The position numbers and the translations under genes are program-made. The notes beneath the pieces are model-generated. The model saw only the letters and a program-made list of their open reading frames with translations. It ran no database searches and was not told the DNA's origin. 64,000 bases of DNA from Archangium violaceum. GTDB taxonomy: Bacteria; Myxococcota; Myxococcia; Myxococcales; Myxococcaceae. The stretch lies in contig NZ_CP069338.1 of the NCBI RefSeq assembly GCF_016859125.1, positions 9,241,501 through 9,305,500 of the forward strand. Reading direction: 5' to 3'. This document shows, in pieces, positions 1 to 10,357 of the stretch; within the stretch, counting starts at the first letter, position 1, and each line of letters begins with the position of its first letter.

Positions 1-3000
1 GGCGGGTGGGGTAAGCGGGTTGCTGCTGCTGGGGCGCCGGTGCGGAAGGCTCGGAGGGGAGAGGGCCGACAGGGGAGAGCGGGGCGGCGAACGCCTCACC
101 TTGGAGGGAAGCAGACACACGTTGGGGTGTGGCGGCACCGGGCAGTGTAACTGCCCCCGGGGCGGCAGTGAGGAGGGGCGAGGGCGTGGTGCCGCGCTCC
201 ACGGCAGGCCCTGCAAGTTGCTGAGCCCCCTGCACGCTCGCCGGGAGTTCGGGTGTGTCTATCGCCTCCGGACGCTGAGGAGGTGCCATGGTGCCCTGCG
301 CCGGAGCAAGCAGGGGCAGGGAAGAAGCGCTGGGCTCGGCAGTGGGCGCAGCGGGCACGGGCCTGGAGGGTACGAATGGCTCTCTCGGCTGAGTGCCAGG
401 CAGCTGCGAAGGGGCCGTGGCGGTGGGCTGGGCTGGAGCGAGCAGCGGCAGGGACGCGGTGCTGGCCTCGATGGCGGGCACGGCGGGCATGGCCACAGGC
501 GCGGTGCCGCTCTCGATGGCAGGTCCGGCAGGTTTGAGCTGAAGCGGGGCCGTGCTGGGCTCGAGTGCGGGTGCGACGGGCACGTGTGGCACGGGCGCCG
601 GAGGGGCTGCCGGAAGGAGCGGTGTGGCGGAGTCCCCGAGGCGAGCGGGAGTCAACGACGGGCCTGTGTCCTGGAGAGGAACAGTCCGCTGGCGGGTGGG
701 GTAAGTGGGTTGCTGCTGCTGGGGCGCCGGTGCGGAAGGCTCGGAGGGGAGAGGGCCGGCAGGGGAGAGCGGGGCGGCGAGCGCCTCACCTTGGAGGGAA
801 GCAGACACACGTTGGGGTGTGGCGGCACCGGGCGGTGTAACTGCCTGCGGGGCGGCAGTGAGGAGGGGCGGGGGCGTGGTGCCGCGCTCCACGGCAGACC
901 CTGCAAGTTGCTGAGCCCTCTGCATGCTCGCCGGGAGTTCGGGTGTGTCTATCGCCTCCGGACGCTGAGGAGGTGCCATGGTGCCCTGCGCCGGAGCAAG
1001 CAGGGGCAGGGAAGAAGCGCTGGGCTCGGCAGTGGGCGCAGCGGGCACGGGCCTGGAGGGTACGAATGGCTCTCTCGGCTGAGTGCCAGGCAGCTGCGAA
1101 GGGGCCGTGGCGGTGGGCTGGGCTGGAGCGAGCAGCGGCAGGGACGCGGTGCTGGCCTCGGCGGTGCTCACGGTGGGCACGAATGCGGGTGCGGTGCTGT
1201 GCTCGGCGGCAGGCACGGAGAGAGCGCGTTGCACGGGTGCGGCGCTGGGCTCGGTGGAGGAGGCGATGGGCGCGGCCGGCGTGGCGGAGTCCACTTCGCG
1301 CGCCGGAGTCGAAGACGGCTCCTCGTGCTGGAGCGAGGCAGAGGCAGGTGTGACGGAGCTTGGTGCCGGACCGAGGAGAGGCAGGGGCGCGGTGCTGCTC
1401 TCGATGGCAGGTCCGGCAGGTTTGAGCTGAGGTGGGGCCGTGCTGGGCTCGAGTGCGGGTGCCAAGGGCACGTGTGGCACGGGCGCCGGAGGGGCCACCG
1501 GAAGGAGCGGTGTGGCGGAGTCCCCGAGGCGAGCGGGAGTCAACGACGGGCCTGTGTCCTGGAGAGGAACAGTCCGCTGGCGGGTGGGGTAAGCGGGTTG
1601 CTGCTGCTGGGGCGCCGGTGCGGAAGGCTCGGAGGGGAGAGGGCCGGCAGGGGAGAGCGGGGCGGCGAGCGCCTCACCTTGGAGGGAAGCAGACACACGT
1701 TGGGGTGTGGCGGCACCGGGCGGTGTGGCTGCGCTGGGAGTGGGAGTGAGGAGGGGCGGGGGCGTGGTGCCGCGCTCCACGGCAGACCCTGCAAGTTGCT
1801 GAGCCCTCTGCATGCTCGCCGGGAGTTCGGGTGTGTCTATCGCCTCCGGACGCTGAGGAGGTGCCATGGTGCCCTGCGCCGGAGCAAGCAGGGGCAGGGA
1901 AGAAGCGCTGGGCTCGGCAGTGGGCGCAGCGGGCACGGGCCTGGAGGGTACGAATGGCTCTCTCGGCTGAGTGCCAGGCAGCTGCGAAGGGGCCGTGGCG
2001 GTGGGCTGGGCTGGAGCGAGCAGCGGCAGGGACGCGGTGCTGGCCTCGGCGGTGCTCACGGTGGGCACGAATGCGGGTGCGGTGCTGTGCTCGGCGGCAG
2101 GCACGGAGAGAGCGCGTTGCACGGGTGCGGCGCTGGGCTCGGTGGAGGAGGCGATGGGCGCGGCCGGCGTGGCGGAGTCCACTTCGCGCGCCGGAGTCGA
2201 AGACGGCTCCTCGTGCTGGAGCGAGGCAGAGGCAGGTGTGACGGAGCTTGGTGCCGGACCGAGGAGAGGCAGGGGCGCGGTGCTGCTCTCGATGGCGGAC
2301 ACGGCAGGTTTGAGCTGAGGTGGGGCCGTGCTGGGCTCGAGTGCGGGTGCCACGGGCACGTGTGGCACGGGCGCCGGAGGGGCTACCGGAAGGGGCGGTG
2401 TGGCGGAGTCCCCAAGGCGAGCGGGAGTCAACGACGGGCCTGCGTCCTGGGGAGGCACAGTCCGCTGGCGAGTGGGGTGAGCGGGTTGCTGCTGCTGGGG
2501 CGCCGGTGCGGAAGGCTCGGAGGGGAGAGGGCCGGCAGGGGAGAGCGGGGCGGCGAGCGCCTCACCTTGGAGGGAAGCAGACACACGTTGGGGTGTGGCG
2601 GCACCGGGCGGTGTGGCTGCGCTGGGAGTGGGAGTGAGGAGGGGCAGAGGCGCGGAGTCCGCCGCAGGGAATGGCTCCTGGGCGGCGCTGCGCTCGGAAG
2701 GCAGGGAGAGAGCGCGTTGCACGGGCGCGGCGCTGGGCTCGGCGGAGGAGGCGATGGGCGCGGCCGGCGTGGCGGAGTCCACTTCGCGCGCCGGAGTCGA
2801 AGACGGCTCCTCGTGCTGGAGCGAGGCAGAGGCAGGTGTGACGGAGCTTGGTGCCGGACCGAGGAGAGGCAGGGGCGCGGTGCTGCTCTCGATGGCAGGT
2901 CCGGCAGGTTTGAGCAGAAGCGGGGCCGTGCTGGGCTCGAGTGCGGGTGCGACGGGCACGTGCGGCACGGGCGCCGGAGGGGCCACCGGAAGGGGCGGTG

Positions 3001-3283
3001 TGGCGGAGTCCCCAAGGCGAGCGGGAGTCAACGACGGGCCTGTGTCCTGGGGAGGAACAGTCCGCTGGCGGGTGGGGTAAGCGGGTTGCTGCTGCTGGGG
3101 CGCCGGTGCGGAAGGCTCGGAGGGGAGAGGGCCGACAGGGGAGAGCGGGGCGGCGAACGCCTCACCTTGGAGGGAAGCAGACACACGTTGGGGTGTGGCG
3201 GCACCGGGCGGTGTGACTGCCCCCGGGGCGGCAGTGAGGAGGGGCGGGGGCGTGGTGCCGCGCTCCACGGCAGGCCCTGCAAG
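1..3283. repeat. Tandem long near-identical repeats with modular in-frame deletions
   Basis: The same landmark (GGCGGGTGGGGTAAG, or a one- to two-base variant) occurs at 1, 691, 1579, 2467 and 3067. The units are therefore 690, 888, 888 and 600 bases, all multiples of three. The two 888-base units are almost identical. The 690-base unit lacks a 198-base module and the 600-base unit lacks 288 bases relative to the full unit. All lie within the Pro/Ala-rich minus-strand gene and keep its frame. The high DNA identity points to recent duplication or homogenisation. Confidence 0.9.
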
Positions 3284-3853
3284 TGTGGACGTGGCGGCGT
3301 CTTCTCGAGGCTCCGGGGGACTGAAGACCTGAGGAGGCGTGAGGGTAGGAGGAGCCGAAGGCGGGGCCTCCTGCACGGGCGCTGGAGGCGCGATGTCTTC
3401 GCGGGGGGAGGGAGCCAGCGCGGCCCCAGAGCCCTGGGCATCCGGGCTGGGAACAGGTGGTGCATCACCTGGCGCGGCGGAGCGTGCCTGCACGGGAGCA
3501 GGGGCTTCCCCCCGCGGAGTGCCCGTCTGCTGCGCAATCTCCTCCAGCCCCTCGGAATCAGCGCCAAACTCCAGAGGCACGGAGGGCGGGCCGACCTGCT
3601 CCAGCGGCCCGGCTCGCAGCACATTGCCGAGCAGGGCCCCCCAGGCGGCATCGCGTCCGGACGGCAGGGGCACCAGCAGGGGAAAGTCTTCGAGCGCGCC
3701 GCGCGGAGGCGCATCGGGCGGAGGCGCGAGCGGATCCTCGATGTACTCGGTGGCGAGCGAGCGGGTGCCGGCGAAGAGGGGGCGCAGCAGGGGGCGTGCG
3801 AGCGACGCGGTACCGGAGGCCCTCTGCGCCAGCCGCGTGAGGAAGTCATCCAC
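1..3853 (-). CDS. eCIS-associated Pro/Ala-rich repeat protein (partial at left edge)
   Basis: Seen: an open minus-strand frame of at least 1284 codons starts with GTG at 3853 and leaves the window with no stop. The GTG overlaps the stop of the upstream baseplate-like gene by 8 bases (GTGGATGA), so translation is probably coupled. Residues 1 to about 115 form a folded-looking N-terminal part (MDDFLTRLAQRASG..., many Leu/Arg). From about residue 190 the protein is Pro/Ala/Ser/Thr-rich with runs such as QQQQPA and PLPVAPPAPVP. It consists of near-identical blocks of about 200-296 residues. Known: eCIS loci often encode a Pro-rich protein beside the tube and chaperone genes. Inferred: a structural or scaffold part of the injection system; exact role unknown. 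The equally long plus-strand frame here is antisense. Confidence 0.7.
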   Translation of the reverse strand, partial: MDDFLTRLAQRASGTASLARPLLRPLFAGTRSLATEYIEDPLAPPPDAPPRGALEDFPLLVPLPSGRDAAWGALLGNVLRAGPLEQVGPPSVPLEFGADSEGLEEIAQQTGTPRGEAPAPVQARSAAPGDAPPVPSPDAQGSGAALAPSPREDIAPPAPVQEAPPSAPPTLTPPQVFSPPEPREDAATSTLAGPAVERGTTPPPLLTAAPGAVTPPGAATPQRVSASLQGEAFAAPLSPVGPLPSEPSAPAPQQQQPAYPTRQRTVPPQDTGPSLTPARLGDSATPPLPVAPPAPVPHVPVAPALEPSTAPLLLKPAGPAIESSTAPLPLLGPAPSSVTPASASLQHEEPSSTPAREVDSATPAAPIASSAEPSAAPVQRALSLPSERSAAQEPFPAADSAPLPLLTPTPSAATPPGAATPQRVSASLQGEALAAPLSPAGPLPSEPSAPAPQQQQPAHPTRQRTVPPQDAGPSLTPARLGDSATPPLPVAPPAPVPHVPVAPALEPSTAPPQLKPAVSAIESSTAPLPLLGPAPSSVTPASASLQHEEPSSTPAREVDSATPAAPIASSTEPSAAPVQRALSVPAAEHSTAPAFVPTVSTAEASTASLPLLAPAQPTATAPSQLPGTQPREPFVPSRPVPAAPTAEPSASSLPLLAPAQGTMAPPQRPEAIDTPELPASMQRAQQLAGSAVERGTTPPPLLTPTPSAATPPGAATPQRVSASLQGEALAAPLSPAGPLPSEPSAPAPQQQQPAYPTRQRTVPLQDTGPSLTPARLGDSATPLLPVAPPAPVPHVPLAPALEPSTAPPQLKPAGPAIESSTAPLPLLGPAPSSVTPASASLQHEEPSSTPAREVDSATPAAPIASSTEPSAAPVQRALSVPAAEHSTAPAFVPTVSTAEASTASLPLLAPAQPTATAPSQLPGTQPREPFVPSRPVPAAPTAEPSASSLPLLAPAQGTMAPPQRPEAIDTPELPASMQRAQQLAGSAVERGTTPPPLLTAAPQAVTPPGAATPQRVSASLQGEALAAPLSPAGPLPSEPSAPAPQQQQPTYPTRQRTVPLQDTGPSLTPARLGDSATPLLPAAPPAPVPHVPVAPALEPSTAPLQLKPAGPAIESGTAPVAMPAVPAIEASTASLPLLAPAQPTATAPSQLPGTQPREPFVPSRPVPAAPTAEPSASSLPLLAPAQGTMAPPQRPEAIDTPELPASVQGAQQLAGPAVERGTTPSPLLTAAPGAVTLPGAATPQRVSASLQGEAFAAPLSPVGPLPSEPSAPAPQQQQPAYPTR

Positions 3854-4577
3854 TGCTGATCAGCTCCATGTAGCGGCGGCGGGCGGGGGCGCTGAGCGAG
3901 AGGATGATGGACTCGGTCCAGCCGTAGCTCCTGGCAATCTCATGCACTTCGCGCTGGAGCTGTCGCGCATACGCCTCCAGCTCGGTCCAGAAGAAGGACA
4001 GGATGTCGAAGGCGGCCCGCCAGGAGTGTCCGCAGCCGGGGCAGTCGAGCCGGAAGGTGATGTCGGCCTGGGGGTCGTCCTCGGCGAGCCGGGCCGTGAG
4101 GGCCTCCAGGACGCTGCCGGGCACGGCGGAGAGCGGGACGGGCGCCCCCTGGAAGCGGGCCTCGCTCATGCATCGCTGCAAGAGCCGGGCACGGGCCTCG
4201 CGTGCATCCTTCAGGTGGGCGAGCGCGGCCAGGTCGAGGCTGTCGGGCAGGCGGTAGTCGAGCGCATACCCCTGCACCTCGAGCGGGCTGCGAGGTGTCT
4301 CGGGGGCGGGGACACGCAGCTCGTCGGCGGTGAACTCCAGCTCCAGGCGCTCGCGGCACTTGGGACAGGGCACGAGCACCTCGAGCTTCTGTCCGAAGGC
4401 CTGCGCGCGCAGTTCCAGCAGGAGCGCATCGCGCCGGCCAATGGACAGGCGGGCGAGCGCCGCCGGGTCCACCCCGGGCGAGGCCGCGCGCAGCAACACC
4501 AGGGCCCGGTCCAAGGCATGCTTGTCCCGGCCCCACTCGCAGATGCGCACGATGTCATGCGCGCTGAGCTGCCGCAT
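3846..4577 (-). CDS. T4-type baseplate/hub-chaperone-like protein with zinc ribbon (eCIS)
   Basis: A 243-residue protein encoded between the tube gene (25 bases upstream) and the repeat protein (8-base overlap downstream). It has two Cys pairs, CPKC at residues 71-74 and CPGC at 179-182, that would form a split zinc ribbon. The sequence between them is mainly helical and acidic, with a C-terminal helix of tail-baseplate type. Known: proteins of this layout sit directly after tube genes in contractile tail-like clusters and resemble the T4 baseplate hub assembly chaperone family. Inferred: it assists baseplate or hub assembly of the injection system. The family call rests on the Cys motifs and position, not on a search. 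Confidence 0.65.
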   Translation of the reverse strand: MRQLSAHDIVRICEWGRDKHALDRALVLLRAASPGVDPAALARLSIGRRDALLLELRAQAFGQKLEVLVPCPKCRERLELEFTADELRVPAPETPRSPLEVQGYALDYRLPDSLDLAALAHLKDAREARARLLQRCMSEARFQGAPVPLSAVPGSVLEALTARLAEDDPQADITFRLDCPGCGHSWRAAFDILSFFWTELEAYARQLQREVHEIARSYGWTESIILSLSAPARRRYMELISSG

Positions 4578-4602: not shown

Positions 4603-5136
4603 TTAGGAGGTTGGGTCGTTGAAGGTGGGCTCCTGCGGCTCCTGGACGCTCTGGTCGCGCTCCCAGCCCTCGGTCTGCAGCACGAGCGACTGGATGGCCA
4701 CCGCGTTTCCCGAGCCATCCAGCTCCGGCATGGCGGTGAACTCCGAGGGCCAGCACCGGTAGCACTTGTAGGAGATGACCTTCTGGCCGGCCTCGTTGAA
4801 CAGGTCGATGGTGAGGTCCTTGCGGAAGTCCGCCAGCGACACCTCCTGGCCCATTTTCGAGGAGTTGGCGTAGTCCCAGACCTTGTTGGCCCACTGCTCG
4901 AACGCGGTGTCATGGGTGACGCCGCGCTCCAGGGTGATGGCTTCCCAGTCCGTCTGGCCCAGGGACTTGCGGGTGGTGCTCGGGTCGCTGCCGGCCCGGT
5001 GCTTGACCACCTCGGTGGTGCGCTTGAGGGCGCTCACCTTGCTCACGCCGGCGACGGGCTTGCCGTCCCAGCTCACGACGAACTTGAAGTTCTTGTACGG
5101 GTCGACGCGCTTTGCGTTCTTGGTGAACTCAGGCAT
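4603..5136 (-). CDS. Contractile injection system inner tube protein
   Basis: A 177-residue protein of the phage tail-tube/eCIS tube family. It starts MPEFTKNAKRVDPYKNFKF and contains the conserved pattern FVVSWDGKPVAGVSKVSALK, then LERGVTHDTAFEQWANKV and a late beta segment (VIQ-type, LVLQTEGWERD). Length and fold pattern match tube monomers that stack as hexamers inside the sheath. It lies 18 bases after the sheath gene, the usual sheath-tube order. Role (family knowledge): forms the rigid inner tube that is driven into the target on sheath contraction and carries cargo. Only one tube gene is visible here. Confidence 0.88.
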   Translation of the reverse strand: MPEFTKNAKRVDPYKNFKFVVSWDGKPVAGVSKVSALKRTTEVVKHRAGSDPSTTRKSLGQTDWEAITLERGVTHDTAFEQWANKVWDYANSSKMGQEVSLADFRKDLTIDLFNEAGQKVISYKCYRCWPSEFTAMPELDGSGNAVAIQSLVLQTEGWERDQSVQEPQEPTFNDPTS

Positions 5137-5154: not shown

Positions 5155-6792
5155 CTAGGCGGTCTGACCGGCCGACTGCTCGATGTAGATGACGACGAAC
5201 TCGGCGGGCTTGAGCGGGGCGAAGCCCACCTCGATGTTGACGATGCCCTTGTCGATGTCGTCCTGGGTGGTGGTGGTGGCGTCGCACTTGACGAAGAAGG
5301 CCTTGTCGCGCGAGCTGCCCTGGAAGGCACCCTGGCGGAACAGGTCGTTCATGAAGGCGCCAATGGCCAGCCGCAGCTGGGACCAGAGCGGCTCGTCATT
5401 GGGCTCGAAGACGGCGAAGCGCGTCTGCCGCAACAGGGTCTGCTCGATGAAGTCGGTGAGCCGGCGCACGGGCAGGTACTTGAAGTCACTGCTGAGCACG
5501 TCGGCGCCCGCCAGGGTGCGCGCACCCCAGACGACGGGGCCTACCACGGGGAAGGAGCGCAGGCAGTTGACGCCCACCTGGTTGAGGTTGCCGTTCTCCG
5601 TGTCGGTGAGCTTGTAGTTCAGGCCGGTGATGCCGTTGAGGCCCGTCTCCTGGCCCGCGGGCGCCTTCCACACGCCGCGGGTGGCGTCGGTGCGGGCCAT
5701 GATGCCGGCGATGATGCCGCACGCGGGGCGGGTGATGATGGCATCCGAGTTGAGGGGGTCCTCGGACTGCACGCGCGGGAAGTAGAGCGCGCTGTAGGGC
5801 GCCAGGTCCGAGGCGGGGCCGTACCCGAAGACCGTGCCGAATGAATCCGGGTGGATGTCCCTCGTCGGGTCCGTCCAGTTGGACGGCGGGTCGAGCACCA
5901 GGGTGGCCTTCTCGTCGCGGCACTTGCCGGCAGCCGCCGCGTAGACGTTCGGAGTGATGTCGTGCGAGCCGAGGAAGCTGTCGGACGGGATGCAGACGAT
6001 GTTGTAGATGTCGAGCCTGTCCAGCTGGTCCAGGGCCGCCAGGTAGGTGCCCTCCGAGAGCTTGCCCGAGTCCTGGACGTCCCCGTTGTGCGTGTCCACG
6101 GGGGGGGAGTTGATGGGCGAGCTGCCGGTGTCGACCAGCCGGGCGTAGCTGGACGTCTGCTCCAGAACCATCTTCAGGTAGCGCGGACCGGACCGGGGGT
6201 CGGTGGACACGGCCGCGAAGGACTCGAGGTCCTTGGTTCCGTCAGGCCGGGCGTAGCTGATGGTCAGGTTGAAGAGGTCGCTGGCATCCCAGCCACCCTT
6301 GCCATCCTTCTTGAAACGGTCCCGGGCCGTCTGGGTGATGTTCTTCGTATCGGTGAAGTAGGTGAGGCTCTTGCCCCAGGCACCGGGGCTGGAGGCGAGC
6401 AGGGACAGCGCCGGGACCGGCGGGCTGCTCGGGACATTGGCCGGATCGGGGCTGATGAGCGCCGTGTCCTCGTCGAAGGTGCCGGAGAACGGCGGGCTCA
6501 GGGGACTGGAGAGGCGGTTCTCGAACAGCCGGATGATGATGGCCTGGCCTCCACCATTGAGGAAGAAGTCCTGGACGGAGTACGGCATGGGCGAGTCATC
6601 GAGCAGTCCGCCAAAGGTGTGCTGGTACTCGGAGAAGGAGGAGACCTCGATGGGCTGTCCCACGGGGCCGCGTTCCGCGCGTCCGAAGAAGACCGTGAGG
6701 GAAGTAGAGACGCCGACAATGGTGCGGACGCCGCTGGGGACTTCCTGGACGTAGATGCCAGGAGCCGACAGCGGCGGGCGGACGAGAGCCAT
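5155..6792 (-). CDS. Contractile sheath protein (phage tail sheath family, eCIS)
   Basis: A 545-residue tail sheath protein. The N-terminus (PGIYVQEVPSG, then RTIVGVSTSLTVFFGRAERG) is the hallmark start of sheath subunits. The C-terminus (GIVNIEVGFAPLKPAEFVVI) is the conserved beta handshake arm that links neighbouring subunits. A good ribosome site (AGGTGA) lies about 4 bases before the ATG at 6792. Role: polymerises around the tube and contracts to fire it. It is the first gene of the visible eCIS operon, followed by tube, baseplate-like and repeat proteins on the same strand. The rest of the system (spike, ATPase, tape measure) must lie beyond the left edge if present. Confidence 0.9.
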   Translation of the reverse strand: MALVRPPLSAPGIYVQEVPSGVRTIVGVSTSLTVFFGRAERGPVGQPIEVSSFSEYQHTFGGLLDDSPMPYSVQDFFLNGGGQAIIIRLFENRLSSPLSPPFSGTFDEDTALISPDPANVPSSPPVPALSLLASSPGAWGKSLTYFTDTKNITQTARDRFKKDGKGGWDASDLFNLTISYARPDGTKDLESFAAVSTDPRSGPRYLKMVLEQTSSYARLVDTGSSPINSPPVDTHNGDVQDSGKLSEGTYLAALDQLDRLDIYNIVCIPSDSFLGSHDITPNVYAAAAGKCRDEKATLVLDPPSNWTDPTRDIHPDSFGTVFGYGPASDLAPYSALYFPRVQSEDPLNSDAIITRPACGIIAGIMARTDATRGVWKAPAGQETGLNGITGLNYKLTDTENGNLNQVGVNCLRSFPVVGPVVWGARTLAGADVLSSDFKYLPVRRLTDFIEQTLLRQTRFAVFEPNDEPLWSQLRLAIGAFMNDLFRQGAFQGSSRDKAFFVKCDATTTTQDDIDKGIVNIEVGFAPLKPAEFVVIYIEQSAGQTA

Positions 6793-8839: not shown

Positions 8840-10253
8840 CTACGTGATGTGCGCTGTGCTCAGCGAGCCCAGCTTCGTCCACAGCTTCTGCCAGAGGCTG
8901 GCCGACTCCCGGCCAATGACCAGCACCACTCTTCTGGCGTGTAACAGCACCCGCGCGGCTACTTTGAGCACCCGCTCGCGCACACGGCGCAGCCCCCAGC
9001 CCTCGCCCGTGGCCTGCTCCATCAGCACGCGCGCGGCGTGCACCAGGTTGTAGGCCAGGGCATTGAGCAACAGGCGTACCTCGTTGTTGGCGAAGGCGTC
9101 GATGGACACCGAGCGCTGGACGGGCGGCTGCCCCCGGTACTTGGACTTGGGCCGTCTGGCCGAGGAGAGCGCCGGGGCCAGCACGTCCATGAACTCTGCG
9201 AAGTGGCCCTCCGCCGTGCCGCGTTGGCGGTAGTGCTCCAGCAGCGCCTGCGCCGGCATCTCAGAAGGCGTGCGGGAAGAGCTCGTCCTTCCTCTCCAGC
9301 ACTACCAACACCACGCGCCGCGCACGGCTCCAGCCCTGCGCCTGGTACTCCCATTCGTACAGGTGGGTGCCCGGCTCCCCCAGCGGCACTCCCGAATTCA
9401 TGAAGCGCGGCAGCGCCGCCTCCCGCTGCAACACGCTGGTGTTGCGCACGCGCGCCACGTAGGGCGTGCCTCGCTCCTCCAGCTTCGCCAGCAGCTTCTC
9501 CTCGGGAAAGCCCGCGTCGAAGCGCACCGCTGCCACTTCGCATACCTCCTTCTCCACTCGCCCCAGCAACTCGTCGATGAATTCCAGCGCTCCATTGGCG
9601 CTGTGCACGTTTCCCTCGCGCAACCTCACGTCCAGCAGGTCTCCCGTCTCGGCGAGACTGGCGACAATCGGGTGGTACATGCGTACTCCGTAGTGCCCGT
9701 TGTACGCGCTGCCCTCCTGGTGCCCAGGCACCTCCACCGGCAACCCGTCCACGTCCACCGTCACCTGCTTGAGCTTCTGGCCCTTGGGCTGTTGCGCCCT
9801 CAGCCTTCGCCCCGTCTGCCACACCAGCGCCTCGTGCAGCACCTTCCGGTTTTCCTCTCGCGCCAACATGGCCGTCAGCCGCGACAAGGTGGGCTGTGAG
9901 GCCAACCCCTCCGCTCCCCCCTCTTCCCCCCTCAGCGGCACGCTGCTCTTGCTGTCCGACACCGCCAACCTCAACACCGCGTCCCTCCTGAGCGCGTCCG
10001 CGTCGTCGTGGTCTCTCCACCCTTGCCCCAACAGCAGAAGGTCCGTGCGCACCAACTCCCTCAGCGAGTGGGTTATCCGCTTCTCGTCTCGCGTGTCCGT
10101 CAACATCTCCCCCAGCCAGCGCGTCAGCCCCAACCGCTCGTCCACCTCCCTCAGCAGCACCGCCCCTGCCTCCGACGTCAACCGCTCCGCCCTCGCCTCC
10201 AGCTTCACGGAGCCGTTGAACTCCAGCCCGAAGTCGTTGAGGATTTCACCCAT
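8840..10253 (-). pseudogene. IS1380-family transposase, frameshifted
   Basis: The 5' part (10253-9261, 330 residues) starts at ATG after AGGAGG and carries the first DDE aspartates (QVTVDVDGLPVEV and VRFDAGFPEEKL) and the family pattern LRDVRLREGN-like before LDVRLREGNVHS. It stops at TGA 9263-9261. The 3' part (9259-8840, 139 residues) continues in another frame with LLEHYRQRGTAEGHFAEF, which holds the catalytic Glu, and NALAYNLVHAARVLM. Together they give about 470 residues, near normal family length, but a short stretch around the HAF motif is missing. Most likely a decayed, non-autonomous copy; programmed frameshifting is less likely because sequence is lost at the joint. Confidence 0.75.
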
Positions 10254-10357
10254 GACGCGCCTCCTGCCTTGTGGTGGTGGATGTCTGAACAACACCCCTC
10301 TACCACTCGGGAGGTCAGGCGCGTCACCCTCCTTTTCCGGTCATCCTCCTGCACCTC

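Follow-up and report, generated by a model that had tools for sequence, protein, structure and literature searches.

Tailed phages encode their tape measure after the tube and the tail assembly chaperone. The particles of Streptomyces contractile injection systems (CIS) are uniform in length and a tape measure gene has not been found for them (PMC10066040, PMC12237407); those of S. coelicolor, for instance, are equal in length, yet no tape measure gene has been recognised (PMC12237407). In the H. borinquense cluster, likewise, neither a plug gene nor a tape measure gene can be recognised (PMC11566945). The locus described here lies partly in a 64,000-nucleotide stretch of Archangium violaceum DNA, referred to as the window (contig NZ_CP069338.1, positions 9,241,501 to 9,305,500), and includes a long Pro/Ala-rich gene belonging to a family that occurs in almost every locus of one CIS type and has no name in Pfam, NCBIfam or PHROGs.

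The gene order on the minus strand is sheath, tube, PF12322 gene, Pro/Ala-rich gene, Pvc16 cap and AAA ATPase. It includes the contractile sheath protein (5155..6792; PF04984 and PF17482), the gp19-like inner tube protein (4603..5136; PF06841 with E 5.5e-41, and CIS tube chains in the PDB) and the PF12322 'T4_baseplate' gene (3846..4577; Pfam E 9.5e-15, PHROG 150), a putative tail-assembly-chaperone equivalent, which shares an 8-base overlap with the start of the Pro/Ala-rich gene. Beyond an insert lie genes for a CIS_tube-like protein, the A. lansinium ortholog of which matches PF19266, a spike, gp25, two baseplate J proteins and a DUF6519 protein. Sheath, tube, spike, gp25, baseplate J, cap and AAA ATPase genes occur together, the combination used to define a CIS locus, and the sheath, tube, cap and AAA ATPase neighbours bear out the assignment of the Pro/Ala-rich gene to such a system in an earlier note on this DNA. 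The insert (L002:6437-11800), a stretch of 5-7 kb between the ATPase gene and the remaining CIS operon, contains insertion-sequence-like remnants by eye and is absent from A. lansinium, and upstream of the sheath gene there is a transposase-like gene split into two frames (window 8840-10295, minus strand). In the DUF6519 protein at the operon end (L003:8443-12612, minus strand), Kelch repeats occur together with a glycosyl hydrolase 25 domain and a TonB-C domain. No tape measure match was found among the operon proteins in Pfam or PHROGs, nor in NCBIfam for the first ten proteins.

The PF12322 protein is a candidate chaperone equivalent, for which the profile evidence is suggestive rather than proof. 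Comparison with the chaperone of other CIS types gave a weak hhalign match in the zinc-ribbon region (probability 61%, E 8e-5), and the PF12322 protein of one relative ends in a DUF6760-like stretch (E 0.006), DUF6760 being a small protein that comes after the chaperone in other CIS types.

The Pro/Ala-rich gene encodes 1883 aa (23% proline, 17% alanine) at genome positions 9239702-9245353 on the minus strand, equivalent to window -1798..3853 with the frame read past the window edge, and its open frame is intact across 5.65 kb. The edge truncates the gene, so that the in-window part occupies 1..3853, with a GTG start at 3853 and the stop outside at -1798. The N-terminal conserved segment, VDDFLTRLAQRASG...RPLFAG (3740..3853, minus strand), was delimited by ortholog alignment (consensus MSDFLxxLxxRxLG...PRLPSxFEP). 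An open plus-strand frame at 20-3859 overlies the same DNA; since both the operon and the conserved ends belong to the minus strand, it was taken for an artefact of high GC.

An anchor sequence is present at window 50, 740, 1628, 2516 and 3116, giving spacings of exactly 690, 888, 888 and 600, which, like the size steps of 198 and 288, are divisible by 3 and therefore in frame. This matches the near-identical repeats with in-frame size differences that had been reported at 1-3283; the repeats are real, and those coordinates cover only part of the gene. A core of 91-92 aa occurs six times in the whole gene, at spacings of 600, 888, 888, 690 and 546. All are on the minus strand, with copy 1 at 2921..3193 (aa 221-311), copy 2 at 2321..2593 (aa 421-511), copy 3 at 1433..1705 (aa 717-807), copy 4 at 545..817 (aa 1013-1103), copy 5, truncated by the window, at 1..127 (aa 1243-1333), and copy 6 outside the window. 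The size steps of 198 and 288 derive from two optional modules on the same strand: M2 (2114..2275) is present in copies 1, 2 and 3 and missing from copy 4, reducing 888 to 690, and M3 (1760..2095) is present in copies 2, 3 and partly 4 and missing from copy 1, reducing 888 to 600. The repeats have no further occurrence in the 12.68 Mb single-contig genome.

The six cores differ from each other by a dS of 0.02-0.08, and between units 2 and 3, both 888 bases long, 22 sites are different (dS 0.037), compared with a dS of 0.5-0.7 between this genome and Archangium lansinium in the orthologous sheath, tube, PF12322 and end segments. The array therefore appears young, its units being, by this comparison, far younger than the species split or homogenised since. 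The four-gamete test was failed by 33 of the 153 pairs of variable sites in the six core copies, as expected if copies exchange sequence, with recurrent mutation as another possible cause. Both results agree with the active recombination that had been proposed from the repeats, in the sense of units lately amplified or homogenised; an equal number of repeats with divergent synonymous sites in relatives, which would speak against it, is not what is seen. The dN/dS among units is slightly under 1. Among other genomes of the genus, only that of A. lansinium has a close ortholog of the PF12322 gene next door, and the A. lansinium ortholog of the Pro/Ala-rich protein, at 1579 aa, carries different internal repeats with 77-91% identity. 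Length thus differs between the species, and the pair provides natural long versions differing by whole units.

A profile of the C-terminus finds the family after tube and PF12322 genes in loci of many phyla, including archaea. Of 80 loci of this CIS type, 71 have sufficient downstream sequence, and 70 of these contain it (65 by profile and five, as divergent versions, by eye). Median length is 284 aa, with the middle half at 257-334 and a range of 213-1883, in the 61 members with assignable starts, of which the two Archangium proteins are the longest. Two Shewanella members (L035:11252-14851 and L038:11252-14752) measure ~1170-1200 aa by open frame, are not Pro/Ala-rich and possibly have a folded middle. 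The N-terminus (MSDFLxxLxxRxLG) and the C-terminus (VxVTIGRIEVRA, a Pro-rich loop and SLDDYLxxR) are conserved, at 34% and 42% mean pairwise identity, against 16% in the middle, where 80% of residues are of disorder-promoting kinds. An AlphaFold2 model of a 242-aa member, built from 33 sequences, contains helices at 2-13 and 230-239 only, with low confidence elsewhere and a mean pLDDT of 57. Pfam and NCBIfam models gave zero matches among 33 members, PHROGs gave none for the three members scanned, and a text search of papers for the C-terminal motif returned nothing. In-frame internal repeats arose separately in several lineages: besides the Archangium pair, an ANME-2 archaeon, a gammaproteobacterium and a cyanobacterium have them. 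Repeats are not the defining trait of the family, which the earlier note missed; most members of this widespread family lack them and have about 284 aa. Those of Archangium are a local exaggeration, and the gene matters more than its repeats.

The explanation we favour, at somewhat short of even confidence, is that the protein is a disordered, tape-measure-like CIS component that occupies the lumen of the tube and has grown longer through duplication of blocks. While the particle assembles, its short conserved ends would attach to parts of the tube, baseplate or cap, and its low-complexity middle would thread the lumen, with chain length limiting the number of tube rings added. The Archangium middle would have reached ~1800 residues as blocks of ~200-296 residues were recently duplicated and deleted in frame. 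This proposal builds on the gene family and its position, the conserved ends, the predicted disorder, the recent amplification of repeats and the lack of a recognised tape measure in the operon. The gene lies directly after the tube gene and the PF12322 gene, a putative chaperone equivalent. The helical or coiled-coil character of a tape measure is not seen, with two short predicted helices in the 242-aa member and 23% proline in the Archangium protein. On the scale of about 0.2-0.24 nm per residue given by the three comparisons in other CIS types described below, the span of a typical 284-aa member would be only 57-68 nm. Known CIS tubes are longer than this, and the chain of such members would have to be more extended; this counts against a simple transfer of the scale to this family, and we know of no measured particle of this CIS type. 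For the 1883-aa version, 0.2-0.3 nm per residue would predict a length of roughly 375-565 nm.

Conserved ends joined by a middle that varies freely would also suit an assembly tether or adaptor that connects two parts, such as tube or baseplate with cap or ATPase, in which length is irrelevant and the repeats are a near-neutral expansion of a spacer. The linker composition, the wide variation in length (213-1883 aa) and a unit dN/dS just modestly under 1 are consistent with this, but it leaves unexplained both the recurrence of a long low-complexity gene beside a putative chaperone in other CIS types and how length is set in these systems, and we consider it rather unlikely. A carrier of cargo or effectors, lodged in the tube and ejected at firing instead of acting as a ruler, has a precedent in the tape-measure-related cargo of Streptomyces, namely Tme of S. 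davawensis and Sle1 of S. lividans (PMC11126660, PMC13277306), and the Roseiflexus counterpart contains an eCIS_core domain. The Pro/Ala-rich family, however, has no effector or eCIS_core (DUF4157) domain in Pfam and NCBIfam scans, eCIS_core-like genes sit elsewhere in related loci by eye, and a family found in nearly all loci of the type is unlike swappable cargo, making such a role improbable.

A plug-like protein, with its C-terminus in the spike cavity and the remainder as a passive tail, is suggested by the strand, loop and helix of the family C-terminus, which repeat the element order of Alg6 (an N-terminal strand, a flexible loop and a C-terminal helix; PMC8894135), but this C-terminus matches neither solved chains nor Pfam, and a better candidate exists in another family, of 85 aa with a strand and a helix, encoded after the ATPase gene; this reading has little probability. 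Identification of the C-terminus as the spike plug (Cis6, DUF5908) was rejected in view of this better candidate and the absence of a profile match; the DUF5908 search was empty in this genome and also in the control genomes. The unnamed 85-aa family (an IHIERLVLDG strand, then a helix) lies directly after the ATPase gene in most loci, including L002:11804-12343 (minus strand) and L092:15600-15857, has three copies in the ANME-2 locus L068 and is a candidate spike plug. Pro-rich repeats are also known from the stalks of other surface proteins, in line with a surface stalk or tail fibre, the earlier note having suggested a stalk; no fibre (Afp13) or receptor-binding domain was detected in Pfam, NCBIfam or PHROGs, though, and the gene lies in the tube-cap block away from the fibre position, so that a stalk or fibre is very improbable. 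Of the stalk or ruler envisaged there, the surface stalk finds no support at this locus, while a ruler is plausible. It is hardly credible that an assembly error accounts for the number of repeats: the whole gene has an intact frame, relatives have independent repeats, and short-read collapse, which had been raised as a possible objection, is unlikely because the genome is a single contig and no collapse to identical units is seen, 22 sites distinguishing unit 2 from unit 3.

A disordered tape measure would also bear on CIS with other gene orders. Types without Afp14 carry long Pro/Ala-rich genes at the chaperone-adjacent position, most though not all of the long genes there being of this composition. 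The chaperone-adjacent long low-complexity gene encodes 975 aa in a Roseiflexus relative, presumably Roseiflexus sp. RS-1, 1506 aa in Deinococcus taeanensis and 524 aa in Nostoc, where it is not Pro/Ala-rich. It encodes 1300-1378 aa in genomes with a tube 99-100% identical to the Streptomyces PDB chain, which we take to be that of S. coelicolor. Set against published extended particle lengths, gene sizes rise with particle length over three points (975 aa in the Roseiflexus relative against 217 nm in R. castenholzii, 1300-1378 aa in the S. coelicolor group against 268 nm in S. coelicolor, 1506 aa in D. taeanensis against 365 nm in D. aquatilis), with proxy species in at least two of the three, relatives standing in for R. 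castenholzii and D. aquatilis. This order agrees with a ruler, as far as three proxy points from a gene type without shown homology can indicate. In Deinococcus grandis (L025:13986-17765, plus strand), the long Pro/Ala-rich stretch directly adjoins a tube protein in one fused product and has a DUF4157-like end. The chaperone-adjacent Pro/Ala-rich gene of Streptomyces ranges from ~626 to 1378 aa, about twofold (L173-L183, L196-L199); were it a ruler, particles within the genus would be predicted to vary in length by about the same factor. We regard it as possible, although on balance doubtful, that CIS supposedly without a tape measure rely on disordered low-complexity rulers of a class so far unrecognised, encoded beside the chaperone gene and growing by in-frame block duplication and causing stepwise jumps in machine length between close relatives. 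The unnamed, near-universal gene, together with the analogous gene in other types, offers a testable candidate for the missing determinant of CIS length.

Several known systems can be compared with the Archangium protein. The secretion rulers YscP and FliK, in which protein length sets structure length, are likewise Pro-rich and low in structure and belong to a different machine. The Alg6/Afp6 spike plug shares the strand, flexible loop and helix seen at the family C-terminus, in contrast to which the present protein has a long N-terminal chain, no profile match and a separate plug-like gene in its operon. The chaperone-adjacent genes of Streptomyces, Roseiflexus, Deinococcus and Nostoc resemble it in neighbourhood, low-complexity middle and conserved end, but have a C-terminal motif of the LDxLARxVYxxLxRRL type and no homology shown; those of Roseiflexus and Deinococcus differ further in having their own eCIS_core (DUF4157) domain or stretch, and that of Nostoc is long yet not Pro/Ala-rich. 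Afp14/Pvc14 and the tape measures of phages have no detectable homology to the family, the Pfam, NCBIfam and PHROG profiles giving no match, and the Archangium protein is disordered and Pro/Ala-rich instead of helical; as a long, candidate internal ruler, it shares with them a gene position after the tube and putative chaperone genes and a length that varies by internal duplication or deletion.
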